From Pseudomonadota bacterium (lineage in GTDB: Bacteria; Pseudomonadota; Gammaproteobacteria; Acidiferrobacterales; UBA6901): a stretch of 12,347 bases of DNA. The stretch lies in the NCBI GenBank assembly GCA_021783175.1, contig JAJXUF010000089.1, positions 1 to 12,347 of the forward strand, given 5' to 3'. This document shows positions 1 to 12,347 of this stretch, one piece after another; position 1 is the stretch's first letter, and every line of letters begins with the position of its first letter. The translations under genes and the position numbers were made by a program. The notes below the pieces were generated by a model. It saw only the letters and a list, made by a program, of their open reading frames with translations. It did not search any database and was not told the origin of the DNA.

Positions 1-729
1 GGAGGCGACGTGATCGAGCGCAGCATAGCGAGTCAGGTCTACGTGCAGCGGGGTAATGGAAACACAATTGCGTCGGATCGCATGAAAATCGGTGCCCGGA
101 CCGGCATCGGCCTCAGGCCCCGGACCCCCTACCCAGTAAATCGGATTACCATGCGGGTCGCTGGACCGCACGACCGGTTCGGCCTTGTGTCGATGACCAA
201 GACGCGTGGCTTCGTAACCGGTAATCTCTGACGGCGGCACATCGGGGACATTCACGTTGAGTATGGTGTCTGCCGGCAGACGGTCGCGTTGCAGTTGCTC
301 CAGCAGACGCACGACGACACCGGCGGCGGTGGAGAAATTCTTGCCGGAACGACCGGCCATCGAAACCGCTATTGCCGGCAGGCCGAGAAACCGTCCTTCC
401 ATCGCAGCCGCGACCGTACCTGAATAGATCACATCGTCGCCAAGATTGGCGCCGTGATTGATTCCGGAAATGACTATGTCAGGTTCCTGCTCGAGCAAGC
501 CTGTGATCGCCAGGTGCACGCAATCAGTCGGCGTGCCATCGACGTAGAAGAAGCCGTTGGTCGCACGGAAGACGCGCAATGGGTTGCTTAGCGTGAGAGA
601 GTTGCTGGCTCCGCTGCGGTCTCGCTCGGGCGCCACCACGTCGACCTGCGCCAGCGGCCGAAGCGCCTCGGCCAGACAGGTCAAGCCGGGGGCAAAGTAA
701 CCATCGTCGTTGCTCAGCAGGATACGCAT
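1..729 (-). CDS. surE: 5'/3'-nucleotidase SurE, C-terminus cut by window edge
   Basis: Metal-dependent survival protein SurE, a cytoplasmic nucleoside 5'/3'-monophosphate phosphatase. The frame is open from the ATG at 729 to base 1, giving 243 residues; the family is usually about 250, so only a few C-terminal residues are missing. The start [10 protein letters not shown] is the classic SurE N-terminus. The metal and active-site residues are all present: D8 and D9 in NDDG, S39 in DRSGAS, and N91 in SGINHGAN. The GTPTDC and IYSGTVAAA segments are also typical. No strong Shine-Dalgarno sequence precedes the ATG (CGGCCGGA), but the N-terminus matches the family exactly. In many proteobacteria surE precedes pcm, nlpD and rpoS, which would lie left of the window. 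It marks the core-genome edge of the accessory region. Identification is secure. Confidence 0.97.
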
Positions 730-1238
730 TCCGGCCGCGACGATACAGAAATCCGCGCTCAAAACCAACACGCCGCCACGCGGCCCGATATTTTGTCTAG
801 TCCTTCCTTAAGAATCCCAGATCCGGCGTCACGCTTTGATGCCCGGCGGCGCTGTCTGATGTCAGGCGCGCCAGCAAGGTGCATCGGTCAGCCGCGGGTA
901 TCCAATGTGGCCAATAGAGTCTATAAGCTATTATTTTATTGGACATATTCTGCCGCGCGCGGGTCGGCGCATTTATTCCTTGGCAGCATCGTTTCTCCAC
1001 CGCCGCAAGCCACTACCTGCACTACCGCTGCCTCGACGCCGTCTTCGGGCACATGGCAGAAAGCGCTCAGCGCCTCACTCGTGATTGCTGCGCCCATCGA
1101 TCTCTCGACCGGCCAGACTGTTTTCGCACCGCGTCAAACTATCTATTATCGCCATCAGCCCAGAGTGATGTAGAAATATCCGCCGAGAATGGCGGTTGTG
1201 GTATCGGTGCTGGTACGGACATCATCGCGCCTCTTGTC
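730..1238. other. Gap upstream of surE with no convincing gene
   Basis: About 500 bp between surE and the first cassette-like gene. Several overlapping frames are open on both strands, but none resembles a known protein or has a good ribosome binding site. An AT-rich patch at about 915-955 is a reasonable place for a surE promoter, though I see no clear -35/-10 pair at good spacing. The best minus-strand frame (936-1097) is listed separately. Confidence 0.4.
936..1097 (-). CDS. Doubtful 53-residue ORF
   Basis: The ORF begins MGAAITSEALSAF and ends ADPRAAEYVQ. Its third codon positions are GC-rich as in the neighbouring genes. It is short, has only a weak GAGAG upstream and resembles no family I recognise. 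The frame is closed by TGA about 13 codons upstream of the ATG. It could be a gene fragment or chance. Listed only because it is the most gene-like frame in the surE upstream gap. Confidence 0.15.
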   Translation of the reverse strand: MGAAITSEALSAFCHVPEDGVEAAVVQVVACGGGETMLPRNKCADPRAAEYVQ

Positions 1239-1319
1239 GCGCAACGTTGGACCTTAATCCGCTTGTCCCGCCTGTCGCGTAGACCAGGGGCGTATCAAGC
1301 CGTCAATCGCAAGTCACAA
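1239..1319 (-). repeat. attC-like recombination site (degenerate)
   Basis: Read on the minus strand, the box TTGTGAC (1319-1313) contains the TGA stop of the GNAT gene, and GTTGCGC (1245-1239) is the far box. Both are one or two bases off the RYYYAAC / GTTRRRY consensus. The element is 81 bp. Inside it GCTTG and CAAGC can pair, and the right arm GGATTAA-GGTCCAAC-GTTGCGC has the usual spacing between inner and outer boxes. Taken alone it is weak; its support comes from the same layout at other genes in the window. Confidence 0.4.
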
Positions 1320-1793
1320 GGCCACCTTCAGTTTGCGCCCACCGGTGATGGAAAACCCCTGGCGTTCATAGAAAGCGAGAGTTCTGTCGAAATGTGGCAG
1401 GGGCGGCGTGGTGACTTCCAGCCTGGTCCACCCACACGACTTGCCGAAAGACTTCGCTTGCGACATTAGACGAAGGCCCAACTCGTTGCCGCGATACTCC
1501 GGGCGCACGTAAAACTCCGCTATGGTTCCGAAAGCTCCCCCTGCATAAAGAGCAAAGCTTTCGTACAGGGCGATAAATCCTGCAGCATTTACTCCGTTGG
1601 CATGTGCGACAAACACAAAGTATCTTTTCTGCCTCAAGAAATCCGTCAATCTCGCGCTTGTTTCACCAAGATTAAAGTCAAAAGCCTTAACACCGGTGAC
1701 GTTCATGATTTCCGCCAGTAGCTCCCCGACCAATACTGCGATTTGTGGCGCATCCGCCGCAGTTGCTCTGCGCATTGTGAAATCTGTGCTCAT
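1314..1793 (-). CDS. GNAT-family N-acetyltransferase
   Basis: Acetyl-CoA-dependent acetyltransferase of the Gcn5-related family, 159 residues, a normal single-domain length. The acceptor substrate cannot be read from the sequence. The N-terminus (MRRATAADAPQIAVLV) has the usual first strand and helix. Motif A is at about residues 90-115 (AEFYVRPEYRGNELGLRLM), where RGNELG replaces the common R/QxxGxG/A acetyl-CoA loop. FYERQGF near residue 142 is the typical motif B end. The ATG at 1793 has no clear Shine-Dalgarno sequence; an internal ATG at MRRATA is an alternative. Its TGA stop lies in an attC-like box, and an IS3 relic lies just upstream, so its original promoter or cassette junction may be lost. 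Confidence 0.9.
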   Translation of the reverse strand: MSTDFTMRRATAADAPQIAVLVGELLAEIMNVTGVKAFDFNLGETSARLTDFLRQKRYFVFVAHANGVNAAGFIALYESFALYAGGAFGTIAEFYVRPEYRGNELGLRLMSQAKSFGKSCGWTRLEVTTPPLPHFDRTLAFYERQGFSITGGRKLKVAL

Positions 1794-1862
1794 ACAAAAA
1801 TGTATTTTCGTTGCTGACTTTGGAATTCAGAGAATGGCAAAAAGCACAGCCTTTTGACAGTC

Positions 1863-2030
1863 TGGAAGAAGCGCCTGATCGAAGAAAAGATTATCGGCTT
1901 TCTGCGCGAAGTGCATTCCCCCGAAGAAATGGCTTCGCCAGCAGGGCATTTTCCGAAGCAACCTACGAATTCTCGCCAACGATCAAGTTCTGCCGCAGCG
2001 ACGGCCAGTCCCGACGTCGGCATGAGCACC
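1863..2030 (+). pseudogene. Relic of IS3-family transposase OrfA
   Basis: Two plus-strand frames together recall an IS3 OrfA helix-turn-helix protein. The first (from 1866) gives KKRLIEEKIIGFLREV, matching the usual KKRFTEEQIIGFLREA start. After a frame change the second (about 1940-1990) gives RAFSEATYEF and then IKF, matching the usual HGFSEASYYLWRSKFGG. The middle is scrambled, no complete frame remains, and no terminal inverted repeats are visible. It belongs to a different OrfA lineage from the element at 7473. It occupies the space where the attC of the GNAT gene at 2034-2501 should be. The relic call rests on recognising the family by eye. Confidence 0.6.
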
Positions 2031-2039
2031 TTGTTAGGC
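1974..2039 (-). repeat. attC-like site, probably only one end preserved
   Basis: On the minus strand the box GCCTAAC (2039-2033) is a perfect RYYYAAC and contains the TAA stop of the upstream GNAT gene. A far box GTTGGCG (1980-1974) and pairing TGCCG..GAC / GTC..CGGCA would give a 66-bp site. However, this DNA overlaps the IS3 orfA relic, so the far half may be chance. The safest reading is a true outer box with the rest replaced. Confidence 0.4.
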
Positions 2040-2501
2040 AAGGACTTTAGTCATCGAAACACAACCCATCGACACGCCCCTGGATGTGGTATATGAAACT
2101 AATTGATTTCCTGCAAACCCGCATGCGCGATAAAACTCTACGGCATTCAGGGTTGATTGCAGAGTTATCGTTTTCAACCCATGACTCAGTGCTCTATTCT
2201 CAAGAAATTTGATGATATTTCTTCCAATGCCCTTTCGCATGTAGTTTGGATGAACAAAAATGGCATCGATTTTTCCAGTTTCGCTGTCGATCATACCGGT
2301 GCCGACAGTTTGGCCGTCGTATTTCGCGAGATAGAAATTCCTCGCGACGGAATCCGCGAATTCATCTGACAATTCGACGTTTGCCCACGCTTTTATGAGA
2401 TTCAGGGGATAGTGGCTGGCGCATTGATGGAGGATAGCGGCTCTTCTTATCTCAAGCGCCACCTGCGCATCTTCGTATTTCGCTTTATCTATGATTAACA
2501 T
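2034..2501 (-). CDS. GNAT-family N-acetyltransferase
   Basis: A single GNAT domain of 155 residues from the ATG at 2501. AAAGGTAG lies 8 bases upstream of this ATG, so it is preferred over the in-frame TTG at 2525. Motif A is well formed, IFVHPNYMRKGIGRNI (about residues 87-102), with the RKGIGR acetyl-CoA pyrophosphate loop. It is followed by TLQSTLNAVEFYRACGF, the usual beta-strand/helix segment before the C-terminal strand. The substrate is unknown; the layout resembles small environmental GNATs that act on small molecules or peptides. The gene starts just after an attC-like site and its TAA stop lies within GCCTAAC, so it behaves as one gene cassette. Confidence 0.9.
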   Translation of the reverse strand: MLIIDKAKYEDAQVALEIRRAAILHQCASHYPLNLIKAWANVELSDEFADSVARNFYLAKYDGQTVGTGMIDSETGKIDAIFVHPNYMRKGIGRNIIKFLENRALSHGLKTITLQSTLNAVEFYRACGFAGNQLVSYTTSRGVSMGCVSMTKVLA

Positions 2502-2519
2502 CTGCGGCGCTACCTTTAG

Positions 2520-2639
2520 GTTCAATGCTTGCTTGAGCGGCCTGCCACCACCGAACGACCCGAGCAGATGAACTTGACTTTGCCACTTCAGGAAAATAGC
2601 GCCGCTCAGGGCCGGTCCGCTTTAAAACACTCGTCAGGC
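2520..2639 (-). repeat. attC-like recombination site
   Basis: On the minus strand GCCTGAC (2639-2633) contains the TGA stop of the cupin gene, and ATTGAAC (2526-2520) is the far box, differing from GTTRRRY only in the first base. The inner arms TTTAAAGCGGACCGG and GGCCGCTCAAGC carry the AAGCGGAC / CCGCTCAA core common in proteobacterial attC sites. The length is 120 bp. The next gene's ribosome binding site follows directly. Confidence 0.5.
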
Positions 2640-3101
2640 AGTCTCCCATCGTACTGGCTTTTTAACTGCCTCGCCGTCGTCAATGGTTTTATCCTTTCCA
2701 TATCCTCCGGATGGTGCCTGAACGACAACGTAGTACAAAGGCTCATCCGACAGATTTCTCCAACATCTGATGCCCGCCGGCGCCACCCGGATAACAGTGC
2801 CCGAACTGATCGGCACTATTTGGTCATCAACTCGGAATTCACCTGTGCCCTTGATGAAGATGTAAATCTCCTCGTTATTTCTGTGCCTGTGATGAAACGG
2901 CATTGAGGTCTTCGGTGGGAGCTTATTTAACGATATCTCGGCGCTGGTTAGCCCCAAGATCGAATTCAGAAACACCTTGCCTTCGACTTCGAATGGCATT
3001 TTGGCGTGGGAAAACCTGTACCTATCCAGGTTTCCGAGCTCACCCAGATCCGTTGCACTAAAATTCCCTCCGGTCTGAATCACATTCGGTACCACATTCA
3101 T
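2634..3101 (-). CDS. Cupin-domain protein with altered second motif
   Basis: A small single-cupin protein of 155 residues with a beta-barrel metal-binding fold; the reaction is unknown. Cupin motif 1 is clear at residues 68-85 (PFHHRHRNNEEIYIFIKG), giving metal ligands H71, H73 and E78 before G85. Motif 2 is at about residues 101-116 (GTVIRVAPAGIRCWRN), where the expected His ligand is Cys (C113). The protein may therefore bind metal differently, or only weakly. The start ATG at 3101 is preceded by a purine-rich GGGAGAGAGAGGA. The stop TGA lies within an attC-like box. Upstream (3102-3256) is an apparent small ORF and then the alpha/beta hydrolase, with no terminator, so cotranscription with the hydrolase is possible. 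Confidence 0.88.
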   Translation of the reverse strand: MNVVPNVIQTGGNFSATDLGELGNLDRYRFSHAKMPFEVEGKVFLNSILGLTSAEISLNKLPPKTSMPFHHRHRNNEEIYIFIKGTGEFRVDDQIVPISSGTVIRVAPAGIRCWRNLSDEPLYYVVVQAPSGGYGKDKTIDDGEAVKKPVRWETA

Positions 3102-3244
3102 TCCTCTCTCTCCCTACGGTTGGTGTTGTCTGACGTTCCGGTTCGGCGATTTCGCGAAACACCATTCGCTGGAACCGGCGGTTGGATAGCCGCGCCTGCC
3201 GCAAGGATACTTGCCGGCATCTCAATCGGTCGACGGTCGTACAT
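3098..3244 (-). CDS. Doubtful 48-residue ORF overlapping the cupin start
   Basis: The frame starts MYDRRPIEMPASILAAG at 3244 and ends in REREE with a TGA that overlaps the cupin ATG (ATGA). Such an overlap allows translational coupling. There is no clear ribosome binding site and no recognisable family. The C-terminal RREREE is simply the purine-rich leader of the cupin gene read in frame. It is probably untranslated leader sequence. Confidence 0.15.
   Translation of the reverse strand: MYDRRPIEMPASILAAGAAIQPPVPANGVSRNRRTGTSDNTNRREREE
3138..3178. promoter_or_regulatory. Inverted repeat upstream of the cupin gene
   Basis: CCGGTTC (3138-3144) pairs with GAACCGG (3172-3178), enclosing a perfect palindrome TTTCGCGAAA at 3150-3159. 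It lies 37-77 bases before the cupin start. There is no U-run, so it is not a standard terminator. The palindrome could be an operator or an mRNA hairpin; the function is unknown. Confidence 0.3.
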
Positions 3245-3256
3245 GGCCGGATCTTC

Positions 3257-4171
3257 TCAGTCGGCTGCTTCGAGAAATTCCGCTGTCACTCGGCCGAGCC
3301 CTTCGGGCGCGTCAAGCCAGGGCAAGTGTCCCGCCGATGGCACCATCGTCAACCATGCATGGGGCATCAGTTTGACCAAACGGCGGGCGACGGCCGCCCC
3401 GCCGAATGGATCGTCAGCGCCCCAGAGAAACAGCGTTGGGGCGGAGACCGATTGAAGCACTTCGTCAGGGATCGTCATTTCTGGCCGGAAGCCGCGCAAT
3501 GACCCGGCGCGACCGATCATCTCACCGTCATTGCGCATAGTGTTGGTGTGACGCTGCAGCGCCAGGTACCACTCAAAGAAGATCTTCGGGATTCGGTTGG
3601 CGTCAAGGCTGGCGCCGTGGCCTATCTTACGGAGGATGCTGCGTCCCACGGACTCGTTGGGCGGCAATGTGTTCATCAGCCATCGAACCGGGCGCAGCGA
3701 CATGGCCTTCATGAACCCAGGAACCGACATCCCGGGCGCGAACGCCGGACACGCCATCAGGACCATTCGACCGATTCGCGTGGGCGTGTCGGCCGCTGAC
3801 ATCAGGGAGAGAAACCCCCCGAACGAAGACGCCACAACATGGGCGCGTTCCAGTCCGAGTCCGTCCAGCACCCCCGACAGGAACCCGCGGCCGTACTCGT
3901 GAGGGTTTCCGGTGAGGACGAAGTCATCGCTAAGCCCTGTTCCGGGGCAATCGACGATGTGGCAGCGAAACTCTGCGAGGGCCGGGAGCAGCGGCGCCCA
4001 CGTGGAACCCGCATTCAGGACGCCATGCACGAGAACGACCGCAGGGCCGTTGCCCACGCTCTGCACGCGCATTTCGACACCGGCAAGCCGGATGCGCTGT
4101 TCGACCGGGCTTAGGCCAACATGCTCCCAAAGCCGCCACTCGGCCTCTCGATAGCGTTGCTCGTCTAGCAT
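3257..4171 (-). CDS. Alpha/beta-hydrolase fold protein
   Basis: A 304-residue serine hydrolase of the alpha/beta fold; the substrate (ester, amide, lactone or other) cannot be told. The oxyanion-hole segment is VVLVHGVLNAGSTW with H49-G50. The nucleophile elbow is ASSFGG (A114-S115-S116-F117-G118), with S116 the likely nucleophile; the first Gly of GxSxG is replaced by Ala. The acid is most likely D254 in LWGADDPF, and the general base is H282 in PSAGHLPW. A cap region lies between about residues 125 and 240. The frame is open up to 4357, but the upstream part overlaps an antitoxin pseudogene in another frame, so the ATG at 4171 is chosen; GCAGGACGG lies about 10 bases before it. No attC-like box surrounds this gene. 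It is followed within about 155 bp by the cupin gene. Confidence 0.9.
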   Translation of the reverse strand: MLDEQRYREAEWRLWEHVGLSPVEQRIRLAGVEMRVQSVGNGPAVVLVHGVLNAGSTWAPLLPALAEFRCHIVDCPGTGLSDDFVLTGNPHEYGRGFLSGVLDGLGLERAHVVASSFGGFLSLMSAADTPTRIGRMVLMACPAFAPGMSVPGFMKAMSLRPVRWLMNTLPPNESVGRSILRKIGHGASLDANRIPKIFFEWYLALQRHTNTMRNDGEMIGRAGSLRGFRPEMTIPDEVLQSVSAPTLFLWGADDPFGGAAVARRLVKLMPHAWLTMVPSAGHLPWLDAPEGLGRVTAEFLEAAD

Positions 4172-4189
4172 GCAATTGGTTCCGTCCTG

Positions 4190-4204
4190 CTCTCTATCAG
4201 AGAG
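4190..4204. promoter_or_regulatory. Short palindrome before the hydrolase gene
   Basis: CTCTCT-ATC-AGAGAG is a perfect 6-bp inverted repeat with a 3-base centre, about 20 bases upstream of the hydrolase ATG. It overlaps the region where a ribosome binding site or operator would lie. No regulator is known for it. Confidence 0.25.
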
Positions 4205-4242
4205 TTCTGCGGCCGGCCAGCCTGACGGTACTAATTTACGTA

Positions 4243-4523
4243 TTACGCTGCGCCTTGTCCAGGTATCTTCCAACCCGGAAATACAAGCAAGCCAGGATGG
4301 CACTTTAGCAATTTGGCGAGAAACTTGGGTCGTGCAACACTCAAACGTACCTGACATTCTCGATGGCGGAGATGGTAGCGTGTGAAATACCGGTCAGACG
4401 CGAGAACCGGCTTTGGTTTAGCTCCCGAAGTTCGCGACTAATTCTCGCCGCTTCGCCCAATTAGACTTCGGCACGCTTTATTGCAGGTCGGGGGCTTTTC
4501 ATTTCAAGGTCTTTGATAGTCAT
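4243..4523 (-). pseudogene. Disrupted XRE-family antitoxin-type regulator
   Basis: A small helix-turn-helix protein of the kind that acts as the DNA-binding antitoxin of RelE/HigB-type systems, now broken. From the ATG at 4523 the frame reads MTIKDLEMKSPRPAIKRAEV and then an in-frame TAA. It continues LGEAARISRELREL, then RLTGISHATISAIEN, the recognition helix of the HTH_3 fold. At about 4340 a frameshift is needed, after which another frame gives LSVARPKFLAKLLKCHP and LLVFPGW, the usual C-terminus of this family, ending at TAA 4243. The original length would be about 92 residues, normal for the family. No Shine-Dalgarno sequence is visible, and no toxin gene lies next to it. The assignment is from recalled family sequences; the nonsense codon and the frame change are seen directly. 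Confidence 0.8.
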
Positions 4524-4559
4524 GCGCGGCTATCGAAGCGATCTGGAACAACAGTTCGA

Positions 4560-4593
4560 AGGGCCTGACCCGTGGCTCTCCCGGTCAGGCCCT
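4560..4593 (-). terminator. Strong hairpin after the propeller lipoprotein gene
   Basis: AGGGCCTGACC (4560-4570) and GGTCAGGCCCT (4583-4593) form a perfect 11-bp stem with a 12-base loop, beginning 25 bases beyond the stop of the lipoprotein gene. Only two T residues follow on the minus strand, so it is not a textbook intrinsic terminator. It may still end or stabilise that transcript. Confidence 0.5.
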
Positions 4594-4617
4594 GAGTGCC
4601 GGCAAGACCGGATGCCG

Positions 4618-5862
4618 CTAATTGATCTTGAAAACGGTGCCGATGCCGTTCGCGCCCCCACCGACCGTCGTTCCATAGAGGTTACCGCTACTGTCCCTGA
4701 AAAGGCTGCCGTAGTACGGCGAAGATCCGTCGTTGCTTGCGGCGCCAAACGAATAAAGAACCGACTCACTGCCGGCAGAGGTGATCTCGAATACCGTTCC
4801 CTGGCCGTAGGCACCGCCGCCATAGGTCGTTCCATAGAGATTGCCGGCGCTGTCCATGATCATTCCATCGATCGGATTGTCGCCATCGGGTATGGTCGCA
4901 AACGAATAAAGAACCGATTCTGTGCCCGATGACGTGACTTTGAACACAGTACCAAGACTGTTTGCGCCACCGGCGGTGGTTGTGCCATAGAGATTGCCGG
5001 CGCTATCCCTGACCAGACAACCCTTCGGGTTTTGCGCATCACTGCTCCCGCTGGCACCAAAGGAGTAAAGAACGGACTCGCTGTGGCTTGACGGAATAAT
5101 CTTGAATACGACGCCAGTGCCGTTTGATCCGCCATCACGCGTTGTGCCATAGAAGTTGCCGGAAGCGTCCGCGATCAGGCCGTCGTAAGGGTGCCATCCA
5201 CTGGCGCCGGTGAAGGAATACACAAAGGCTTCCGAGCCGAAAGGGTTAATCTCGAACACGGTGCCATCGTTTCCGGTACCACCCATCGTTGTAGTTCCCC
5301 AAAGATCGCCGATGCTGTCCATAATGAGGCGACCTGCGGGAAGTTTCCCATCCGCGGTTGTATTGGGGCCAAAGGAATAAAGGAATACTTCATTGCCGGC
5401 GGTAGTCATCTTGAATACGGTGCCATTGTTGTTCGCGCCGCCATCGAAGGTCGTTCCATAAAGATATCCGGCGCTGTCGATGATCAATCCGCCTTGCGGA
5501 TTCTGCCCGTCGGTGCCTGAGCTCGGACCGAAGGAGTAAACGATCGATTCGCTTCCCGTGGGTGTAATCTTGAATACCGTGCCGGTACCGTTCAGTCCAC
5601 CATTTTCCGTGGTGCCATAGAGATTGCCGGCGCTGTCCATGACGAGTCCGGCATAAGGGGACGATCCGTCGCCAGCGCCGGTGGTTCCGAAGGAATAAAG
5701 AAAAGTCTCGCTTGCGCCACCGCTAACTCCACCACCGCCTCCCCCGCCGCCCGAACTGCTGCCAGCCGAACCGCCTCCCCCGCCGCCTCCGCAGGCAGAA
5801 ATGGCGACGAACCCAGCCAGTAGCGCAGCAACAGAACCGATTCGCTTCAAGTGCATTTTCAT
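4618..5862 (-). CDS. Beta-propeller lipoprotein with seven GNLYGTT repeats
   Basis: A predicted lipoprotein of 414 residues. The signal peptide MKMHLKRIGSVAALLAGFVA leads to lipobox ISAC with C24 as the lipidated residue. A +2 Gly predicts outer-membrane sorting. Residues 25-50 are a Gly/Ser-rich linker. The rest is seven tandem repeats of about 50 residues, each with a YSFG start, a DG..P element, D(S/A)xGNLYGTT and GGxxxxGTVFKI. This is the TIGR03803-type repeat (Gloeobacter/Verrucomicrobia type) and most likely folds as a seven-bladed propeller. The start ATG at 5862 follows GGGAGGA by 8 bases. Its role is unknown; such proteins are guessed to bind surface ligands or partners. It lies downstream of a second propeller lipoprotein on the same strand. 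Confidence 0.88.
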   Translation of the reverse strand: MKMHLKRIGSVAALLAGFVAISACGGGGGGGSAGSSSGGGGGGGGVSGGASETFLYSFGTTGAGDGSSPYAGLVMDSAGNLYGTTENGGLNGTGTVFKITPTGSESIVYSFGPSSGTDGQNPQGGLIIDSAGYLYGTTFDGGANNNGTVFKMTTAGNEVFLYSFGPNTTADGKLPAGRLIMDSIGDLWGTTTMGGTGNDGTVFEINPFGSEAFVYSFTGASGWHPYDGLIADASGNFYGTTRDGGSNGTGVVFKIIPSSHSESVLYSFGASGSSDAQNPKGCLVRDSAGNLYGTTTAGGANSLGTVFKVTSSGTESVLYSFATIPDGDNPIDGMIMDSAGNLYGTTYGGGAYGQGTVFEITSAGSESVLYSFGAASNDGSSPYYGSLFRDSSGNLYGTTVGGGANGIGTVFKIN

Positions 5863-5984
5863 TTAATGGATCCTCCCGGGAACTGATTATGAATTTGCCC
5901 GGCGCAATTGATACAGCCGGTTGGTGGTGGACTCGACGCCCCCGGTAATAAGCGAGCCGATGCCGGCGTCTTCCCGGTTGTCAC
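5859..5984 (-). CDS. Doubtful 41-residue ORF overlapping the lipoprotein start
   Basis: A GTG start at 5984 follows GGAG by about 10 bases (AGGAGACATCGATC). The frame ends with a TGA overlapping the lipoprotein ATG (ATGA), an arrangement that allows coupling. The product begins VTTGKTPASARLLPG and contains one CINC motif; it resembles nothing I know. It could be a leader peptide or chance. Confidence 0.2.
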   Translation of the reverse strand: MTTGKTPASARLLPGASSPPPTGCINCAGQIHNQFPGGSIK

Positions 5985-6088
5985 GATCGATGTCTCCTCT
6001 TCATTGAAGCGCGCCCGCGCTACCTGGCCTGCGGGAACGGTCGCTGGAGGTCAATAGCCCTTTTCCGCCCCAAATTCAGTGGCGATGT

Positions 6089-7276
6089 CTATTTTGGTTG
6101 CATCATTAACGGCGTCGGCACGCCGGCCGCGCCGTAGTTCATGAGTTCGGTCACGTTGCTGTCCAGGCTGCCTGTGCCGACCGTGCCGTTGCCATTGTTC
6201 GTGACCCACACGTCGCCAGAGGCGTCGATGGCGATCGCATTCGGATTCTTACCGGCATCCTCGGTCCCAAGAAAACTACCGGTTGGACTGAGTTCCGTGA
6301 CGTTGCTTTCCAGGCTGCCTGTGCCGACCGTGCCGTTGCCATAGTTCGCGACCCATGCATTCCCCGCAGTGTCAAAGGCGATCCAGCCGGGATACAAACC
6401 CGCAGCGTAGGTTCCCAGCAACGTGCCCGTCGGACTGAGTTTCATGATGTTGCTGTCCGCGCTCGCGGTGCCGGGCGTGCCACTGCTGCCATCGTTCGCG
6501 ACCCACACGTTGCCGGTGCTGTCGATGGCGATCGCATTCGGATAGGCGCCTGCGGCGTAGGTCCCCAGCAACGTGCCCGTTGGACTGAGTTTCGTGATAT
6601 TGCTGTCCGCGCTCGCGGTGCCGGGCGTGCCATTGCCTTCGTTCGCAACCCACACATTGCTGGTGCCGTCGATGGCGATCGCGATCGGATAGCTGCCTAC
6701 GGTGTAGGTCCCCAGCAACGTGCCCGTCGGACTGAGTTTCGTGACGTTGTTGCTGCCATAATTTGCGACCCAAACGTTGTCGGCGCTGTCGATGGCGATC
6801 GCGTACGGGCGACTACCCGCAACAAAGTTTCCAAACGAGATACCAGTGGGACTGAGTTTCGTGACGTTGCTATCCGCGCTCGCGGTGCCAGGCGTGCCAT
6901 TCCCATCGTTCGCGACCCACACGTTGCCGGTGCCGTCGATGGCGATCCCGTTCGGATAGGCGCCTGCTGTGTAGGTATGCAGCAGGGCGCCCGTGGGGCT
7001 GAGTTCCATAACGTTGCTGTCCACGCTGGCTGTACCAATCGTACCCATGCTGTTGCCACCGTTCGCGACCCAAGCGTTGCCGAAGGCATCAATGGCGACG
7101 CCCTTCGGATAATCGCCTGCAACGAACGTTGCGGTCGTAGGAGTCAGTCCGGAGACTGAAGCCGTCGATGGAGTCCCGCCTCCGCTCCCGCCCCCGCAGG
7201 CCGTAAGAGCGAAGGCGGTCACGGCAATAAGTGTCCCGCCCAGGGCAAGTCGGAGTAACCGAGACATGAAAAACAT
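6089..7276 (-). CDS. NHL-like seven-repeat beta-propeller lipoprotein
   Basis: A predicted lipoprotein of 395 residues. The start ATG at 7276 is chosen because GAGGT lies 7 bases upstream; the frame extends to 7429, but the added residues do not look like a signal peptide. The signal MFFMSRLLRLALGGTLIAV leads to lipobox LTAC with C27, followed by Gly residues (outer-membrane type). Seven tandem repeats follow, each of the form AGxYPxxIAIDxxGNVWVAN, then NGTPGTASADSNVTKLSPTG and LLGT. This is NHL-like and predicts a seven-bladed propeller. Repeat 3 lacks the GTPGTASAD insert and is about ten residues shorter. The repeats are very alike at DNA level, which suggests recent internal duplication. 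The role is unknown. It lies 226 bp upstream of the second propeller lipoprotein gene. Confidence 0.88.
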   Translation of the reverse strand: MFFMSRLLRLALGGTLIAVTAFALTACGGGSGGGTPSTASVSGLTPTTATFVAGDYPKGVAIDAFGNAWVANGGNSMGTIGTASVDSNVMELSPTGALLHTYTAGAYPNGIAIDGTGNVWVANDGNGTPGTASADSNVTKLSPTGISFGNFVAGSRPYAIAIDSADNVWVANYGSNNVTKLSPTGTLLGTYTVGSYPIAIAIDGTSNVWVANEGNGTPGTASADSNITKLSPTGTLLGTYAAGAYPNAIAIDSTGNVWVANDGSSGTPGTASADSNIMKLSPTGTLLGTYAAGLYPGWIAFDTAGNAWVANYGNGTVGTGSLESNVTELSPTGSFLGTEDAGKNPNAIAIDASGDVWVTNNGNGTVGTGSLDSNVTELMNYGAAGVPTPLMMQPK

Positions 7277-7472
7277 AATGCCTACCTCGCTCATTGTTAT
7301 CAGCCGCACCCCGGTCAGCATGCTGACCCAGACCACAACCGTCTGGTGCCGGGCAAAACGCTGATCGTTCGCGGCATGTCCGAAAGGTTCCCGGAAAAAC
7401 CTAACGGACCCCCTCGAAGATGTAGGCACTACCCTAGTACAAGAGGACTTACAGATAGCATACAGATTGCGC
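7277..7472. other. Leader region of the propeller lipoprotein gene
   Basis: This contains the upstream region of the minus-strand lipoprotein gene, up to the IS3 element. A small inverted repeat ACTACCCTAGT at about 7429-7439 (ACTA/TAGT arms around CCC) could be an operator. The box GTTAGGT on the minus strand (7405-7399) matches the attC outer box, but I find no partner box or stem, so it is not called as attC. No gene is seen. Confidence 0.3.
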
Positions 7473-7905
7473 TGAGGTGGCCTGTCCCCGCTTTTTCCGG
7501 GAATCGGCGAAAGTCCGCCCTAATAGAAGGAGCGGACCATGAAGAAGAAGCGTTTCAGCGAGGAGCAGATCATTGCCAAGCTGACGGAAGCCGAGTCCGG
7601 AGCAAAGACGGCAATTCTCTGCCGCAAGCACGTCATCTCGGAAGCCACCTGCTGCAACGCGAAGGCCAAATATCCCCACATGACGGTATCGGAGGCAAGG
7701 CGCCTGAAAGAGCTCGAACGGGAGAATACGAAGCTTCAGAAGCTTTTGGCCGAGACTGCATTTCACAAGGCCACGCTTCAGGATCTGCCGGGCCTAAAAT
7801 AATAAGCCCGCAAGCCCAACGCGAGGCGGTGACGGTGCTGATGTACGAACGTCACCTGCGCTTAACGTGTGCCTGCGGGCTTCTCGGTATCTCTCGTTTG
7901 CGCTA
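7473..7905 (+). mobile_element. Truncated IS3-family insertion sequence
   Basis: The left end TGAGGTGGCCTGTCCCCGC at 7473 has the TGA..CCCC type terminus of IS3-family elements. It is followed by a complete-length orfA and the first 37 or so codons of orfB, which break off near 7900. No matching right inverted repeat is found. At the break the sequence passes into the remains of a cassette (7906-7976). About two thirds of the element is missing and it cannot move by itself. Confidence 0.8.
7539..7802 (+). CDS. IS3-family transposase OrfA (helix-turn-helix subunit)
   Basis: An 87-residue OrfA, normal length. The N-terminus MKKKRFSEEQIIAKL starts the helix-turn-helix, and LKELERENTKLQKLLAE (about 59-75) is the leucine-zipper-like coiled coil used for oligomerisation. 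AAGGAG lies 6 bases before the ATG. Conserved positions have changed: the usual RKHGISEATFYNWKAKYGG reads RKHVISEATCCNAKAKYPH. The DNA-binding domain has therefore probably decayed although the frame is intact. In intact elements orfB would be reached by a -1 frameshift near the AAAATAATAA at the end of orfA. Confidence 0.85.
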   Translation: MKKKRFSEEQIIAKLTEAESGAKTAILCRKHVISEATCCNAKAKYPHMTVSEARRLKELERENTKLQKLLAETAFHKATLQDLPGLK

Positions 7906-7906
7906 G
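7797..7906 (+). pseudogene. 5' fragment of IS3-family orfB
   Basis: In the -1 frame relative to orfA the sequence reads KIISPQAQREAVTVLM and then CACGLLGISR, matching the beginning of IS3 OrfB (usually PAQRREAV..L, then RACxxxGISRSxxRY). It stops at TAG soon after GISR, where the element is cut. The DDE catalytic domain is entirely missing. Confidence 0.75.
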
Positions 7907-7976
7907 CGCTGCCTGTCCACTGGTCCTGAACGCAGATTGAAGAATGCCGCCTTCATTGCTTCAATAATCCCAGAAT
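7906..7976 (-). other. Cassette remnant cut by the IS3 element
   Basis: This is the sequence that follows the attC-like site at 7977-8043 in the direction of the array. An ATG at 7956 opens MKAAFFNLRSGPVDRQR and closes at TAG 7903-7905, right at the IS3 break. It is likely the head of a cassette gene whose body was lost. RBS evidence is weak (TTGAAGC). Confidence 0.3.
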
Positions 7977-8043
7977 AACTAACGCTTGCACTGAGCGACG
8001 CTCCGCCGTCTGGCGCGTCCGATTGCGAACGCGGGGGTAAATC
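7977..8043 (-). repeat. attC-like recombination site
   Basis: On the minus strand, from GATTTAC (8043-8037) to GTTAGTT (7983-7977), 67 bp. The inner arms pair well: CGGACGCGCC with GGAGCGTCGC. The right side CGCTCA-GTGCAAGC-GTTAGTT has the spacing and wording of proteobacterial attC sites. The left outer box is the more degenerate one. The stop codon of the membrane-protein gene lies 4 bases before the site rather than inside it. Confidence 0.6.
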
Positions 8044-8046
8044 ACT

Positions 8047-8433
8047 TCATTCAGATCGCACCAGGCGTAACTGATAGCCGCGCCATTTTGCGCGAAACAG
8101 CCACCTGATATATTGCCAAAAGAAAATCAACCCGATAATCATGCCAGCGATGCCTCCCAGAATCGCGGCCCCAGATCGAATCGATTCAATCGGCCATCCC
8201 GAGGCGTGTCCGACTATTCCAAGAATGAACCCCAAAATGAAACCGGCAATACCGCCTCCTAGCGCGGAAGCGATGGTAGTAAGTACTGCGCGCCAAAAGA
8301 AACCCCATAACACTCGAAAGCGATCCGCGGTGTGCAATTCATCAAAAGCGACAACTGACTTGGCTGGTGTCACGTGCGGCCCCCCCATTTTTTCCCTTGG
8401 GTCCCAATGAATCAGGTAATCAACGCGGCCCAC
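8047..8433 (-). CDS. Small glycine-rich membrane protein of unknown function
   Basis: 128 residues from a GTG at 8433 (AGGT upstream), or 113 from the ATG at 8388, which has AAGGGA 5 bases upstream; the start is undecided. Two or three hydrophobic segments rich in Gly/Ile/Ala cover about residues 45-75 (GGGIAGFILGFILGIVG) and 88-110 (LGGIAGMIIGLIFFW), with a basic C-terminus FRAKWRGYQLRLVRSE. The pattern fits an inner-membrane helical hairpin. No family is recognised. The gene is followed directly by an attC-like site, so it is likely a cassette gene. The same frame continues upstream past a TGA into the ORF at 8455-8619. Confidence 0.7.
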   Translation of the reverse strand: MGRVDYLIHWDPREKMGGPHVTPAKSVVAFDELHTADRFRVLWGFFWRAVLTTIASALGGGIAGFILGFILGIVGHASGWPIESIRSGAAILGGIAGMIIGLIFFWQYIRWLFRAKWRGYQLRLVRSE

Positions 8434-8761
8434 GAGACCTGACGAAACAGTGCCTCATCTGGCCACGTCCGGTTGAAAACATAGTAATTCGCGACTAAAG
8501 CGGAATCGCATACCCCGCTCTTTCCGAAGGGGCCGCAGGAGTTTTTCCGCTCTTGCTTTCATTCCGTCTCGATTTAGAAACATGACCGCTTCATCTGGAA
8601 ATCCGAGAGCCGCGCCCACCCGCTTGCACCGCCCTCCCCAAAGCTACTAATTTGAGTTTGTTTTCCGCAATATCTTCGATGTCCTCTCAGCGACTCTTTT
8701 TCTGACTGTTACCACGCATGCCAGCACCCTTCCCTTTTTTTGACTGCGTATACTGCAGTTT
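8434..8761. other. Intercistronic region between transporter and membrane protein
   Basis: About 330 bp with no securely called gene. It holds a possible attC remnant (8645-8764) and a doubtful ORF (8455-8619), both listed separately. A small inverted repeat ACTGC-gtatact-GCAGT at 8742-8758 is followed by TTTT on the plus strand, where no gene needs terminating. Confidence 0.4.
8455..8619 (-). CDS. Doubtful 54-residue ORF in frame with the membrane-protein gene
   Basis: A GTG at 8619, with GGGGAGGG about 12 bases upstream, opens VGAALGFPDEAVMFLNRDG, followed by a basic helix-like stretch (MKARAEKLLRPLRKERG), and ends at TGA 8455. The composition is protein-like but no family is recognised. 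It is in the same frame as the gene at 8047-8433, separated only by this TGA and seven codons. It could be a tiny cassette gene, an N-terminal part cut off by a nonsense mutation, or chance. Confidence 0.25.
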   Translation of the reverse strand: MGAALGFPDEAVMFLNRDGMKARAEKLLRPLRKERGMRFRFSRELLCFQPDVAR

Positions 8762-8764
8762 TCA
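8645..8764 (-). repeat. Possible attC remnant after the EamA transporter
   Basis: The far end reads AACTCAAATTAGT on the minus strand, close to the AACTCAAACATTAG end of the site at 11929-12006. The near end at the transporter stop (CGCTGAAAAC) is poor and no strong internal stem is found. This is a weak call, made from position and the one conserved end. Confidence 0.25.
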
Positions 8765-9712
8765 GCGGCGCGCGGAAGCGCGTCCAAGGGAATCGATTTT
8801 TGGGCGCTCTGATCGCGCGGAAACCACCTGACTCCGCCTGCTAACAAAGATCGAAGTCACGACCACTGAGCTGGACAAGAATGCGCCAAGGCTAAATCGT
8901 TCACCAAGAAATAAAGTGGCGAAACCTAGTGTCAAAAACGGTTGCAGCAACTGAAGCTGACTGACCCTCGCCACCCCACCCATGGCAAGACCCCGATACC
9001 ATGCGAAGAACGCAAGGAACATGCTGACTATGCTTACATAAGCGAAGCCAAACCAAGCGCTCGGTTTTGCAACGAGTCCATGTTGCCAAACTTTGAAACA
9101 TACTGGTCCAATCAGAAAGGGCACTGAGGCCAATAAGGCCCAGCAGATGACTTGCCAGCCACCTATCTCGCGCGCCAAACGCGCTCCTTCCGCATAACCC
9201 AGTGCGGCGCAAATGACTGCTCCAATCAAGGCAAAATCCGCGAGATGAAAACTGCCGCCACCCATAGAGAGAGCGTAGGCGATAACCGCAAAGCTACCTG
9301 ACGCGCTTGCAAACCAGAACAAGTTGGATGGTCTTTCATGCGCACGGATAGCGCCCGCAATTGCAGTTGCAAAAGGCAAGAGTCCAAGAACAACAGCGCC
9401 ATGCGATGCCGGCAATTGGCGCATGGCAAGAGCAGTTAGCATGGGAAAACCAACAACTACACCAATCGCTACGATCAGAATACTGAGCCATTGGCGCCTT
9501 TCAGGCATTTTTTGTCTTGTTACGAGGAGTAAAGGCGCAGCCAAGCTGGCTGCTATTAACGCACGTCCTAAACCTACAATCACGGGATCTATGCTTGCCA
9601 CCGCCAAACGTGTGGCAGGAAGCGTAAAGCTAAATCCAAGTACGCCGATAAACCCAAAGGCTAGTCCTTCTGAACTGCTAAAACTCGCTGCGGAATCGGT
9701 TTTTAATTTCAT
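8762..9712 (-). CDS. EamA/DMT-superfamily transporter
   Basis: An inner-membrane protein of 316 residues with about ten hydrophobic helices in two repeated EamA halves, the usual size and topology of drug/metabolite transporters. The first half starts GLAFGFIGVLGFSFTLPATRLA, where FxxTxPxTR resembles the start of many EamA domains. The second half ends with the ARVSQLQLLQPFLT and LGERFS segments typical of the family's last helices. The substrate is unknown; members export amino acids, metabolites or drugs. The ATG at 9712 is preferred over an in-frame TTG at 9730 that lies within the attC outer box. No clear ribosome binding site precedes it. The basic C-terminal tail (RRSQVVSARSERPK) should be cytoplasmic. 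The position right after an attC-like site marks it as a cassette gene. Confidence 0.92.
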   Translation of the reverse strand: MKLKTDSAASFSSSEGLAFGFIGVLGFSFTLPATRLAVASIDPVIVGLGRALIAASLAAPLLLVTRQKMPERRQWLSILIVAIGVVVGFPMLTALAMRQLPASHGAVVLGLLPFATAIAGAIRAHERPSNLFWFASASGSFAVIAYALSMGGGSFHLADFALIGAVICAALGYAEGARLAREIGGWQVICWALLASVPFLIGPVCFKVWQHGLVAKPSAWFGFAYVSIVSMFLAFFAWYRGLAMGGVARVSQLQLLQPFLTLGFATLFLGERFSLGAFLSSSVVVTSIFVSRRSQVVSARSERPKIDSLGRASARR

Positions 9713-9724
9713 ATATGAGGTATC

Positions 9725-9790
9725 ACCCAACGCTCCACTTCAGCCGCCCCGGCATGTCGATACCGACTCCGGCCACAACCGTAGTCACCC
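9725..9790 (-). repeat. attC-like recombination site
   Basis: On the minus strand, GGGTGAC (9790-9784) contains the TGA stop of the YcxB-like gene, and GTTGGGT (9731-9725) is a perfect GTTRRRY box. The 66-bp length is typical. The right side CGGCTGAA-GTGGAGC-GTTGGGT has the standard 7-base spacer between inner and outer boxes. The transporter ATG follows 12 bases later. Confidence 0.6.
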
Positions 9791-10261
9791 GTAATGACCG
9801 CTATGCCAGTATCTTACGTCCGCAAGAAATTGCCGCCTCGACGCCAAATCGGGAAATGCCCTATTCGGTACGATAAGGGCATTGCCATTTTTACCAGTTA
9901 TTATAATTAAATTCATCCCATCCTGAATCGACACAACGTCAGCCCACCTCCGTGAGCCGGATAGTTTCCCTATTTGCGTTGACCACCCTTCCGGCCCTAC
10001 GGTCAGAGTACGTTCGGCACATTTGAACAGAATTTGCGGAAGTAACACCAATAACACGGTTATCGCGAGTAACGCAATCCCGAAATTCAATGCAACTGTT
10101 TTGAACAAAATGAGGCTAGCAGTCCCTTTCGACATGCTACTGCCGACGCTGATAAAAACTGCCGCCAGAACATGCCGCCACCAAAATCTGGCTCTCCAAG
10201 CTGCCCAATACCATCGCCATACTTCACTGCGCGACGAGGTGTAGCGAATTGTATGGATCAT
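9785..10261 (-). CDS. YcxB-like membrane protein
   Basis: 158 residues. The N-terminal third is basic and aromatic (VWRWYWAAWRARFWWRH), followed by two membrane helices at about 29-45 and 52-78 (LLAITVLLVLLPQIL). A C-terminal cytoplasmic beta-rich domain follows, with LTVGPEGWSTQIGK, a strand IIITGKNGNALIVPNRAF and FLADVRYW. This order and the ALIVPNRAF signature match the YcxB-like family, whose function is unknown. The ATG at 10261 lies 3 bases after the attC-like box with no Shine-Dalgarno sequence, so translation may be inefficient or leaderless. The TGA stop lies inside the next attC-like box. Confidence 0.8.
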   Translation of the reverse strand: MIHTIRYTSSRSEVWRWYWAAWRARFWWRHVLAAVFISVGSSMSKGTASLILFKTVALNFGIALLAITVLLVLLPQILFKCAERTLTVGPEGWSTQIGKLSGSRRWADVVSIQDGMNLIIITGKNGNALIVPNRAFPDLASRRQFLADVRYWHSGHYG

Positions 10262-10264
10262 GAT

Positions 10265-10345
10265 GGGTATCGTACTGGTTGAGCGGAGACCGAATGCTGC
10301 GCGAAACGCAGACGTAGCGAGCCTGCTTCCAAGTGGTTGTTAGCC
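10265..10345 (-). repeat. attC-like recombination site with poor far box
   Basis: On the minus strand GGCTAAC (10345-10339) contains the TAA stop of the phosphatase-like gene. The right arm CTCCGCTCAA-CCAGTAC-GATACCC (ending at 10265) keeps the common CCGCTCAA core and 7-base spacer, but the outer box GATACCC is far from GTTRRRY. A hairpin GCTGCGC / GCGTTTCGCGCAGC type centre (CTGCG/CGCAG) lies in the middle. Length 81 bp. Confidence 0.45.
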
Positions 10346-10813
10346 GCGATGTTTATCCAACATAGAAGCAATAAATGATGCCCACACCGGATTCGGCTCC
10401 CAAATGGTTTTCATCAGGGCGAAGGCATCTTCCGTTGACTCGCCGTTCTTGATGGCTCTGTATAAGCCCAAGAATGCCGAGACTCGCATGTTGGCCGCAC
10501 AGTGGAGGAATATTTTTTCTTCTCGGTGCTTCTCCATTGCATCAAAAAATGCCAATAGGTCGGATTCCTGCGGAGCGTCGAACGCAACCGGAATATGAAG
10601 GTATTTCATTCCTAATGATTCAACCAGACCCCGTTCATCCCCCAGGGAATAGCGTGGGTCGTCGTGCAATGCGAGGTTAATGACAACCTGAAACGCTTCG
10701 CGCCCCACTGACGCGAGTTCCGCCTCCGTTGGCTGGCCGGAGGTTGAAAGCAAGTCGTCTACAGGGTGGTAATTGTAGATATCCGATACTGGCGACTCGT
10801 CCATGCGGGTCAT
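10340..10813 (-). CDS. Protein-tyrosine-phosphatase-like protein with short P-loop
   Basis: 157 residues (154 if the second ATG at 10804 is used, which has AAGAG at better spacing). The fold resembles the small DSP/PTP-like family related to DUF442: an early SGQPTEAEL segment, VVINLALHDD, YLHIPVAFDAPQESDL, and the loop FLHCAANMRVSAFLGLYR. H104-C105 and R110 form the phosphate-binding loop, but there are four residues between Cys and Arg instead of the standard five. Other members of this subgroup, as I recall them, share HCxxNMR. Activity as a phosphatase is therefore uncertain. There is no membrane segment, so it should be cytoplasmic. It sits between two attC-like sites, with its TAA stop in the GGCTAAC box. 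Confidence 0.82.
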   Translation of the reverse strand: MTRMDESPVSDIYNYHPVDDLLSTSGQPTEAELASVGREAFQVVINLALHDDPRYSLGDERGLVESLGMKYLHIPVAFDAPQESDLLAFFDAMEKHREEKIFLHCAANMRVSAFLGLYRAIKNGESTEDAFALMKTIWEPNPVWASFIASMLDKHRG

Positions 10814-10823
10814 CTCTTGTGGC

Positions 10824-10907
10824 GACTAACGTTTAAATTTACAGATCTTGCGCGGCTTTATGCGCAAGATCCGGCGGGATTCTGTGTGGGGCAGCATGGG
10901 GTTATCT
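10824..10907 (-). repeat. attC-like recombination site with perfect central hairpin
   Basis: On the minus strand AGATAAC (10907-10901) contains the TAA stop of the GFA-type gene, and GTTAGTC (10830-10824) ends the 84-bp site, 10 bases before the next ATG. A perfect 10-bp stem GATCTTGCGC / GCGCAAGATC with an 8-base loop lies in the middle. No U-run follows, so terminator function is less likely than an attC fold. Confidence 0.5.
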
Positions 10908-11300
10908 ACCGGGTTGCCATTCTTCATAGGACTGAACGTCTTTGTCGTCCAGCAGCCACGGAACATCATGTGAACACCATATGTGCAGAGTGGGCTTTGT
11001 GCCGGGGTCTTCGTCGAGCGTTGCAACGCGCACGATGACATGCGGTTGGGCAATGCGCTCGGCCACAAGGTGAGAACCACAAACGGAACAGAAATGCCTG
11101 AGCTTTCCTGGCGATGACTCAAAGGAAGACAATTTATCTTTACCTCTTACCCAGCGAAAATGCTCGCGTCTAACACCGGCATTCGACGCAAAAGCGGCTG
11201 CTTGGGCCTTGCGGCAAGTACGGCAATGACAATGGCTAATCGGCATGTCCAATTGCTCAACTTCATATTCAATTGCGCGATACAAACAACTGACTTTCAT
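10902..11300 (-). CDS. GFA-family zinc-binding protein
   Basis: 132 residues, the normal size for the glutathione-dependent formaldehyde-activating enzyme (GFA)-like fold. Most members have no proven reaction; the prototype Gfa was reported to promote formaldehyde-glutathione adduct formation. Zinc motifs: HCHCRTCRK gives C24, C26 and C29, and FCSVCGSHL gives C71 and C74. The usual N-terminal CxC (as in GSCLCG) is VSCLYRA here, so only C5 remains and the structural zinc site lacks one Cys. AAGGTGA lies 5 bases before the ATG at 11300. The stop lies in an attC-like box and another attC-like site lies upstream, so it fills one cassette. Confidence 0.88.
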   Translation of the reverse strand: MKVSCLYRAIEYEVEQLDMPISHCHCRTCRKAQAAAFASNAGVRREHFRWVRGKDKLSSFESSPGKLRHFCSVCGSHLVAERIAQPHVIVRVATLDEDPGTKPTLHIWCSHDVPWLLDDKDVQSYEEWQPGR

Positions 11301-11347
11301 ATTTTCACCTTAAGGAAATTCCTACTGTGTGACCATGCCCTACGTTT

Positions 11348-11411
11348 TCCTAACCGGCGCCGACCACTGACGAACAATATCACCGCACCTTCTCCCTGCG
11401 GTCGGTTGAGC
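11348..11411 (-). repeat. attC-like recombination site
   Basis: On the minus strand GCTCAAC (11411-11405) is a perfect RYYYAAC box and GTTAGGA (11354-11348) misses GTTRRRY only at the last base. CCGACC next to the first box pairs with GGTCGG before the second. Length 64 bp. The stop of the upstream GNAT gene lies 7 bases before the site. Confidence 0.55.
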
Positions 11412-11417
11412 TACGAA

Positions 11418-11912
11418 TTAGAACCCGGCAATCTGTTTCTGGTAACGTAATTGGCATAGCTCGATTCCGTAACGCTGGATAAATCGCTTGTCCTCCGTAG
11501 CATGAAAACCGAAGTGTTCGTAAAATCTCCTTGCGTCGAAGTTCTCGCTTACCACCCAGAGTGTTGCGAAGTTACAGTCGTTTTCCTGCATGTAGGTGAG
11601 AGTTTTCTCCATAAGCTTTCCGCCGACTCCGGAGCGAATGGCAACCGGTAAAACCATAATGGACAGAATCTCGGATGCGGCATTTTTCTCGATATTCGAA
11701 ACAACAAACCCAATAGGATTTTGTTCGTGTTCGTAAACAAATGATACGACATTCTTCTTTAAGAAGTAGGCCCGCCACCGATCTTCAAAATCGCGCAACG
11801 TTACCTGCGCCAAATTCTCCGGAGGGAAGTGTTTAGAAAAGGCATGGCACCAGGAGGAATGATAGATTTCTGCCAGTGTCGTCATTTCGTGCGGTTCGGC
11901 GCGGCGAATCAC
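11418..11912 (-). CDS. GNAT-family N-acetyltransferase
   Basis: 164 residues from a GTG at 11912; AGGGGG lies 6 bases upstream, so the rare start is well supported. The N-terminus (MIRRAEPHEMTTLAEIY) and ILSIMVLPVAIRSGVGGKLMEK (motif A, with RSGVGG as the acetyl-CoA loop) are characteristic. NFDARRFYEHFGF is the following motif B. The overall layout recalls Ala/Ser-type and RimI-like small acetyltransferases, but the substrate cannot be named. The gene starts 17 bases after an attC-like box and ends 7 bases before another, a textbook cassette arrangement with a very short leader. Confidence 0.92.
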   Translation of the reverse strand: MIRRAEPHEMTTLAEIYHSSWCHAFSKHFPPENLAQVTLRDFEDRWRAYFLKKNVVSFVYEHEQNPIGFVVSNIEKNAASEILSIMVLPVAIRSGVGGKLMEKTLTYMQENDCNFATLWVVSENFDARRFYEHFGFHATEDKRFIQRYGIELCQLRYQKQIAGF

Positions 11913-11928
11913 AATGAACCCCCTGGTG

Positions 11929-12006
11929 TTCTAATGTTTGAGTTAACCCGCTTGCGAAAACGCACGAAGTCCGCTGTAGCAAGACGCTTGCAATGAAAGG
12001 TTAATC
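11929..12006 (-). repeat. attC-like recombination site
   Basis: On the minus strand the site runs from GATTAAC (12006-12000) to ATTAGAA (11935-11929), 78 bp. The start TTAACCTTTCATTGCAAGCG and the end GGTTAACTCAAACATTAG closely resemble the two ends of classical attC sites (TCTAACAATTCATTCAAGC and TTAACTCAAGCGTTAG types). The first base of the last box is A instead of G. The internal arms pair less well than expected. Confidence 0.6.
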
Positions 12007-12215: not shown

Positions 12216-12347
12216 TCACCATGACAGGCCGGGCTTGGCGACCATGACGTAAATAATAAGGACTACGATGAGTCCCGAAGCTCCGCCAAAGAAACGTCCC
12301 AGCAACGAAGCGTGCTTGTACGGTGCTGAGGTGGGTCCGTTTGTCTC
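12216..12347 (-). CDS. C-terminal part of a membrane protein, cut by window edge
   Basis: The frame is open from the window's right edge to a TGA at 12216, 43 residues. It reads ETNGPTSAPYKHASLLGRFF, then a hydrophobic helix GLIVVLIIYVMV and the tail AKPGLSW. The composition (one clear membrane helix, short polar tail) is protein-like, and the direction agrees with all neighbours. The plus-strand frame over the same bases starting at 12268 is less convincing. The family is not recognised. TGGTGAAC at the stop is faintly like an attC outer box (GGTGAAC), but no partner is seen. Confidence 0.5.
   Translation of the reverse strand, partial: ETNGPTSAPYKHASLLGRFFGGASGLIVVLIIYVMVAKPGLSW

Follow-up and report, generated by a model that had tools for sequence, protein, structure and literature searches.

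Evidence for an old, degraded integron-type cassette array next to surE in a genome of the order Acidiferrobacterales

The subject of this work is a stretch of 12,347 nucleotides (positions 1 to 12,347 of contig JAJXUF010000089.1, assembly GCA_021783175.1; hereafter the window) from a gammaproteobacterium of the order Acidiferrobacterales, in which a row of unrelated genes, most of them followed by a candidate integron recombination site (attC), lies next to surE. We conclude that the window very probably represents the surE-proximal part of an old and degraded integron cassette array, similar to the clusters of attC sites lacking integron integrases (CALINs), that would have been left behind after loss of the integrase (IntI). 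A preliminary description made from the letters alone had proposed an ageing integron-type array at this place, and this is also the best reading of the present data on the sites, their decay and the insertion of the block relative to related genomes.

Identification of attC sites

Candidate sites were scored with a two-arm profile and a pairing score built from 65 attC sites. These were picked by their AAC and GTT boxes at 14 of 18 intI places, on the cassette side of the integrase gene; the 18 places were over or near the cut-off and came from genomes of the order and genomes reached via surE loci. In leave-one-locus-out searches, 64 of the 65 training sites were re-found, with scores of 31 to 59. 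The control for site scores consisted of 79 surE loci (80 minus L074, itself an array carrier), or 2.51 Mb strand-bases, and gene ends were compared with 2446 control ends of open reading frames (ORFs), defined as stop-to-stop frames of at least 150 codons rather than as annotated genes. All score thresholds were set after the scores had been seen.

Joint attC scores with p<0.05 were obtained for the ends of 8 of the 12 minus-strand genes; joint support was absent at the ends of two lipoprotein genes, of the acetyltransferase gene GNAT1 (1314) and of a small gene at 8047. Four minus-strand sites scored at least 24, versus 0.211 expected from the 43 such sites in the control (Poisson 7e-5), and no plus-strand site of the window did so (best 21.6). 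With the best site (k) excluded, three sites remain at this afterwards chosen threshold (Poisson 1.3e-3). Site k scores 45.5, and the control loci hold no site of at least 40.

The similarity to real attC sites extends to the nucleotide level. When the 65 attCs were compared with the window by blastn, all reported matches were on the minus strand, and sites g, h, f and k were matched; the top 15 of the 828 matches obtained in the same way with the 80 control loci were all in L074 or L030. A covariance-model search, suggested earlier as a check on the array, also returned matches. The model was derived from an alignment of seven sites with a hand-given structure, later widened to 55 sites (model R2), and gave seven permissive matches in the window, the best at site k (19.7 bits, E 0.0044) and three of the other six on sites b, f and h. 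Applied to 875 kb of control sequence (46 of the 80 loci), R2 gave six matches: four in L074, which belong to the training set, one in L030 (19.2 bits) and one in L012 (15.1 bits). The E-values of R2 and of a narrower model, R1, are rough because of a shortened calibration, and RNAalifold predicted no pairs on an initial 22-site alignment.

The six minus-strand stop codons that had been reported to lie within TAAC or TGAC boxes are present at 1314, 2034, 2634, 9785, 10340 and 10902. This corresponds to 6 of the 12 minus-strand genes, versus 455 of the 2446 ORF ends used as the control (binomial P 0.014). Eight of the nine attC-like sites first described were borne out by the attC model, the site at 1313 being the one that was not, and four sites had been missed (3128-3187, 4176-4248, 8410-8490 and 8748-8805). 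All of them, the eight and the four (one of the latter recognized by alignment alone), are taken as attC sites, the R''/L''/L'/R' boxes of which are mostly worn, and they lie at gene ends in one orientation, on the minus strand. The close spacing noted between most sites and the next start codon was likewise found, at 3 to 36 bp past the site in seven cases: 16 bp at site a, 36 at b, 10 at c, 3 at d, 12 at e (ATG at 9712), 26 at i and 18 at j (ATG at 2501).

Individual attC sites and their decay

The sites are lettered from the right edge of the window towards surE, and all are on the minus strand. The best preserved is site k (1974-2039), which keeps both the AAC and GTT cores; its score is within the range of real sites, none of the 2446 control ORF ends scores as high, and its segment 2036-2010 is matched by blastn with E 9e-4. 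Both cores are also kept at site c (10824-10907; 3' arm 11.1, p 0.0033; joint p 0.014). The remaining sites are worn. Among them, site i (3128-3187) has a joint score of 30.4 (p 0.0004) with an R' box that starts with GTC instead of GTT; the joint score is lower at sites j (2520-2639; joint 25.6, p 0.0016), b (11337-11423; joint 24.3, p 0.0025; 11.0 bits with the covariance model) and d (10265-10345; joint 22.7, p 0.0049). Site e (9725-9790) has a 3' arm of 14.0, for which 0.02 are expected per window, and a joint p of 0.040.

Site a (11929-12006) was recognized by its 3' arm (13.4; 0.04 expected), and the cassette gene belonging to it would be located in the direction of the window edge or beyond it. 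Together with b and with site h (7977-8042; 3' arm p 0.013; 6.0 bits), it makes up the three sites that had been proposed at 11929, 11348 and 7977 in addition to the six stop-codon boxes, and all three are upheld here. The similarity of site h to a real attC is 82% over 44 nt (8021-7979, E 3.8e-6). Site g (8410-8490), whose 3' end is lost, is 75% identical over 72 nt (8488-8417) to the attC L112_4677 (E 4e-11), and site f (8748-8805; 8.1 bits; joint p 0.038) is 92% identical over 25 nt (8791-8767) to a real attC (E 9e-5). A further, very worn candidate (4176-4248) was proposed solely from its alignment with a homologous cassette, to which it keeps a partial likeness.

Of 13 candidate sites, just two (c at 10907-10824 and k at 2039-1974) retain both cores, versus 64 of the 65 training sites, a proportion that is high partly because the seeds were chosen by AAC and GTT boxes. 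In contrast to the arrays used for training, the window has sites that are much more worn and that might be largely or entirely overlooked by standard searches.

Genomic context of the array

The gene surE (1-771, minus strand; Pfam SurE, 1.1e-63) runs off the window edge and provides a chromosomal anchor beside the array. It is 86, 85, 84 and 82% identical to the surE of genomes G057, G001, G056 and G003, all of one order, and the closest named relatives are two metagenome-assembled genomes (MAGs) labelled Proteobacteria (L001 and L003) and one labelled Candidatus Muproteobacteria (L002). Judging from the translations, we take the gene order in L001-L003 to be pheT, ihfA, a MerR-type gene, tRNA-Pro(ggg), surE, pcm, nlpD and rpoS. 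The tRNA was located in 8 of 11 relatives, with a gap of 155-2674 bp between tRNA-Pro and surE. When the stretches retrieved from upstream of surE in all 11 (1.4 to 18 kb) were searched for 12 other window proteins, none was detected, and therefore the DNA upstream of surE, at least 11.5 kb, is an insertion and not a fixed, syntenic core block. The absence of the block at the same place in related genomes supports an origin as acquired DNA without defining the kind of element. The tRNA-Pro/surE interval looks like a variable spot, since in L003 it holds a gene pair (7726-9267) that, from its translations, we assume to be Abi-like.

The surE gene was also considered as a favoured neighbour of arrays, which we do not claim, as attC matches of at least 36 were found at just 2 of 80 surE loci (upstream in L074, downstream in L030). 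At L074, a locus of the gammaproteobacterial MAG Old_saline_glass_biofilm.mb.10, the four attC matches lie at 595-2270, on the upstream side of surE. Near surE in genomes of the order, no attC match was noticed among the matches listed. A tRNA scan and an Rfam search of the window gave no match, and no near match to the window was found among plasmid records; nor is the window contained in any of the genomes searched.

Integrases and attC sites in related genomes

Integron integrases were detected with TIGR02249, above its cut-off, in 12 of the 57 genomes from the order and in 2 of 7 genomes reached via surE loci (G005 and G006). In contig C49 of genome G035, an integrase over the cut-off (15766-16761) has one TAA within the frame. 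Matches to attC with E<=0.01 are present in 37 of the 57 genomes; 24 of these 37 lack intI at a threshold of E<=1e-60, a number that may be inflated as some of the genomes may be incomplete. The single-contig genomes G046 and G054 have 18 and 20 attC matches in 6 and 8 clusters round the chromosome, of which just 1 and 2 are by intI and most are far from it.

Fragments of integrases lie by attC clusters of three genomes: an N-terminal fragment of 113 residues in G048, an N-terminal fragment of 53 residues in G001 and, less certainly, a C-terminal fragment in G057. The arrays concerned (L211, L207 and L210, respectively) are similar to the window in belonging to the same order and in having attC sites that are recognized by the same model; unlike the window, they hold several better-preserved attC sites, and no common gene order was seen. 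One cassette is shared with the G048 array. The window segment 4238-4554 (minus strand) is 68.6% identical over 322 bp (E 1.6e-24) to positions 2598-2914 of L211 and is a broken remnant of a toxin-antitoxin-type cassette, the two genes of which are presumably of the RelE and XRE types in both genomes. In G048, a well-preserved attC with a score of 51.2 follows the gene pair. The window copy of the pair is broken, with a truncation at its upstream end close to the lipoprotein genes, and only a partial likeness is left at the position of the attC (the candidate at 4176-4248). A late stage of integron decay can be seen in sequence here, one cassette having a well-preserved attC in one genome and a worn one in the other.

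Interpretation and alternative explanations

Like a CALIN, the window contains a row of attC-bounded genes in one orientation and no intI seen within it. CALINs are described as degraded integrons in the excerpt of PMC9024848 used here. They are recognized by at least two covariance attC sites without intI nearby; the window has one site with E<0.01 and three weak matches on candidates, as measured with R2, which is not the model of IntegronFinder. The chromosomal integrons of Xanthomonas provide another parallel: stable arrays in which the integrase is inactivated and its activity lost, with CALINs at other loci, have been published for that genus (PMC12444791, in the sections available). The present array differs in lineage and in position, upstream of surE instead of by ilvD. 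Among literature titles combining Muproteobacteria and integrons, only sediment resistome work appeared, and titles and abstract starts combining surE, integron and attC (searched case-insensitively, so that the word "sure" may match) gave nothing on the subject.

In the history that we propose, IntI would have recombined the folded attC of each cassette with an attachment site, so that the genes were taken up as cassettes; such capture would place genes that point one way, most of them followed by an attC with its first box often at the stop codon. At a later time, a non-cassette block (7976-4560) would have interrupted the array, the integrase would have been lost from this genome, and most attC sites would have lost core bases while most genes stayed open. 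Since both cores remain at just two sites, single cassettes have probably lost their mobility, and the array as a whole most likely no longer functions in recombination; the genes would persist as ordinary chromosomal genes, perhaps retained by selection.

Several observations weigh against the interpretation as a decayed array. Three of the seven permissive R2 matches are off the candidate sites, just site k reaches E<0.01, and R1 gives its highest score in the window to a plus-strand position (14.1 bits, E 0.048), ahead of site h (13.2 bits). Folding of the bottom strands, suggested earlier as a check, gave no support, as the energies of 12 sites are not unusual (z -2.2 to 1.14, mononucleotide shuffles); arm pairing does contribute to the attC scores. 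At the level of single sites, a 3' arm like that of site c is expected 0.25 times per window and its stop-codon box and 5' arm are poor; the 5' arm of site e at the stop box also scores poorly; the support at both sites comes from the 3' arm; the joint p is just 0.038 for site f and 0.14 for site h; the candidate at 4248-4176, the weakest of the added sites, has no support from the attC model; and the 1313 site has none either (p 0.45). Searches of the window with two intI queries detected no intI (best E 0.14), and there was no match to an integrase fragment in two other fetched clusters, L208 (G001) and L209 (G003). Relatives of the window genes add to this list. The closest relative of the GFA-domain gene (76%, L166) is outside arrays, with one distant match of 26.3 on the other strand; the four closest relatives of the PTP-like gene (68, 66, 59 and 58%) are not in arrays; and relatives of the second GNAT gene are in arrays at 0 of 3 loci. 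The cupin-domain gene was dropped as a candidate for a recurrent cassette gene, because its relatives in G001 and G056, which adjoin a gene that is presumably of the TetR type, are not obviously cassettes.

These gene relatives outside arrays, together with the variable size of the tRNA-Pro/surE interval and the presumed Abi-like pair of L003, are what might be expected of an ordinary genomic island or chromosomal gene run by a tRNA, in which the boxes would be chance or translational-coupling motifs. The number of sites, their bias to one strand and the homology of four of them to real attCs make such an explanation very improbable. A complete integron, in which a working intI and attI would follow beyond base 12347 and the worn sites would form the old distal end, is unlikely as well. 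The polarity of the array does place intI on the right, where attI and the Pc promoter would also be expected, past the window edge; site a suggests that the array continues past that edge, and 12 of the 57 genomes compared have an integrase over the cut-off; however, preservation does not improve from the surE side towards the right edge, and the closest surE relatives (G057, G001, G056 and G003) have attC matches and no intI at E<=1e-60, in genomes that may be incomplete. It is rather doubtful, too, that a distant integrase placed the cassettes at a secondary chromosomal site, without an intI-attI platform ever having existed here, a scenario that is a variant of the decayed array and not exclusive of it. 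Its appeal lies in the clusters of G046 and G054, 1 of 6 and 2 of 8 of which are by intI, and in the CALINs away from intI reported for about half of the Xanthomonas genomes (PMC12444791, same sections), whereas about 12 candidate sites stand in one interrupted row in the window versus 1 to 7 model matches per cluster in G046 and G054, counts that were made differently.

The decayed array beside surE may be an instance of a wider process. The 37 of 57 genomes with attC matches, among them the 24 without intI at the above threshold (some of which may be incomplete), and the scattered clusters of G046 and G054 tentatively suggest that in this order cassettes were seeded at many chromosomal places, after which the integrase was lost or broken and the attC sites wore away while the genes stayed, so that standard attC searches would miss them; we regard this as possible and no further than that. 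If such fossils are common, the integron-derived share of bacterial genes is underestimated by present searches.

Gene content of the window

The mixture of unrelated single genes that had been taken as typical of cassette arrays was confirmed. There are 10 cassette-type genes of mixed function, all on the minus strand and all but GNAT1 followed by an attC site; eight have a Pfam match over the cut-off, one is below it and one has no family, and three encode GNAT acetyltransferases. Starting from surE, they are GNAT1 (1314-1793, stop TGAC), cassette-like and without a supported attC after it; a second GNAT gene (2034-2525, stop TAAC); the cupin-domain gene (2634-3101, stop TGAC); an alpha/beta hydrolase gene (3257-4171, the ORF being open to 4357 with a likely ATG at 4171); a gene for a small protein with hydrophobic stretches and without family (8047-8433); an EamA transporter gene (8762-9730); a gene for a YcxB-like protein, the one below the Pfam cut-off (9785-10261, stop TGAC); a PTP-like phosphatase gene (10340-10813, stop TAAC); the GFA-domain gene (10902-11300, stop TAAC); and a third GNAT gene (11418-11912). 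We assign none of the genes to defence or resistance, since PADLOC gave nothing for 6 window proteins and, among the matches listed, no NCBIfam match reached the cut-off for 10 window proteins.

Some of these genes have relatives in arrays elsewhere. For the GFA-domain gene, 6 of 30 loci have a nearby attC match of at least 26, and in 3 of the 30 (L172, L176 and L182) the homolog sits in a row of at least three attC matches scoring at least 38; another GFA gene sits in array L117. For the PTP-like gene, an attC match of at least 26 was found at 1 of 30 loci. Downstream of surE in Methylobacter marinus A45 (L030, 12817-13302), a GNAT gene related to that at 2034-2525 (56% over 124 residues) is followed by the attC match of this locus (36.4; 19.2 bits).

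Contrary to the earlier assumption, the cassettes do not occupy the whole span. The array is interrupted at 7976-4560 by DNA that does not consist of cassettes, namely a transposase orfA remnant on the plus strand (7539-7802; HTH_Tnp_1, 1.9e-14), which we take to be of the IS3 type, and two minus-strand genes for repeat lipoproteins, one of the NHL/SGL beta-propeller kind (6089-7429) and one propeller-like (4618-5862), neither with an attC score and both taken as non-cassette genes. Internal direct repeats with a spacing of about 150 nt are found in these adjacent lipoprotein genes (4618-7429).

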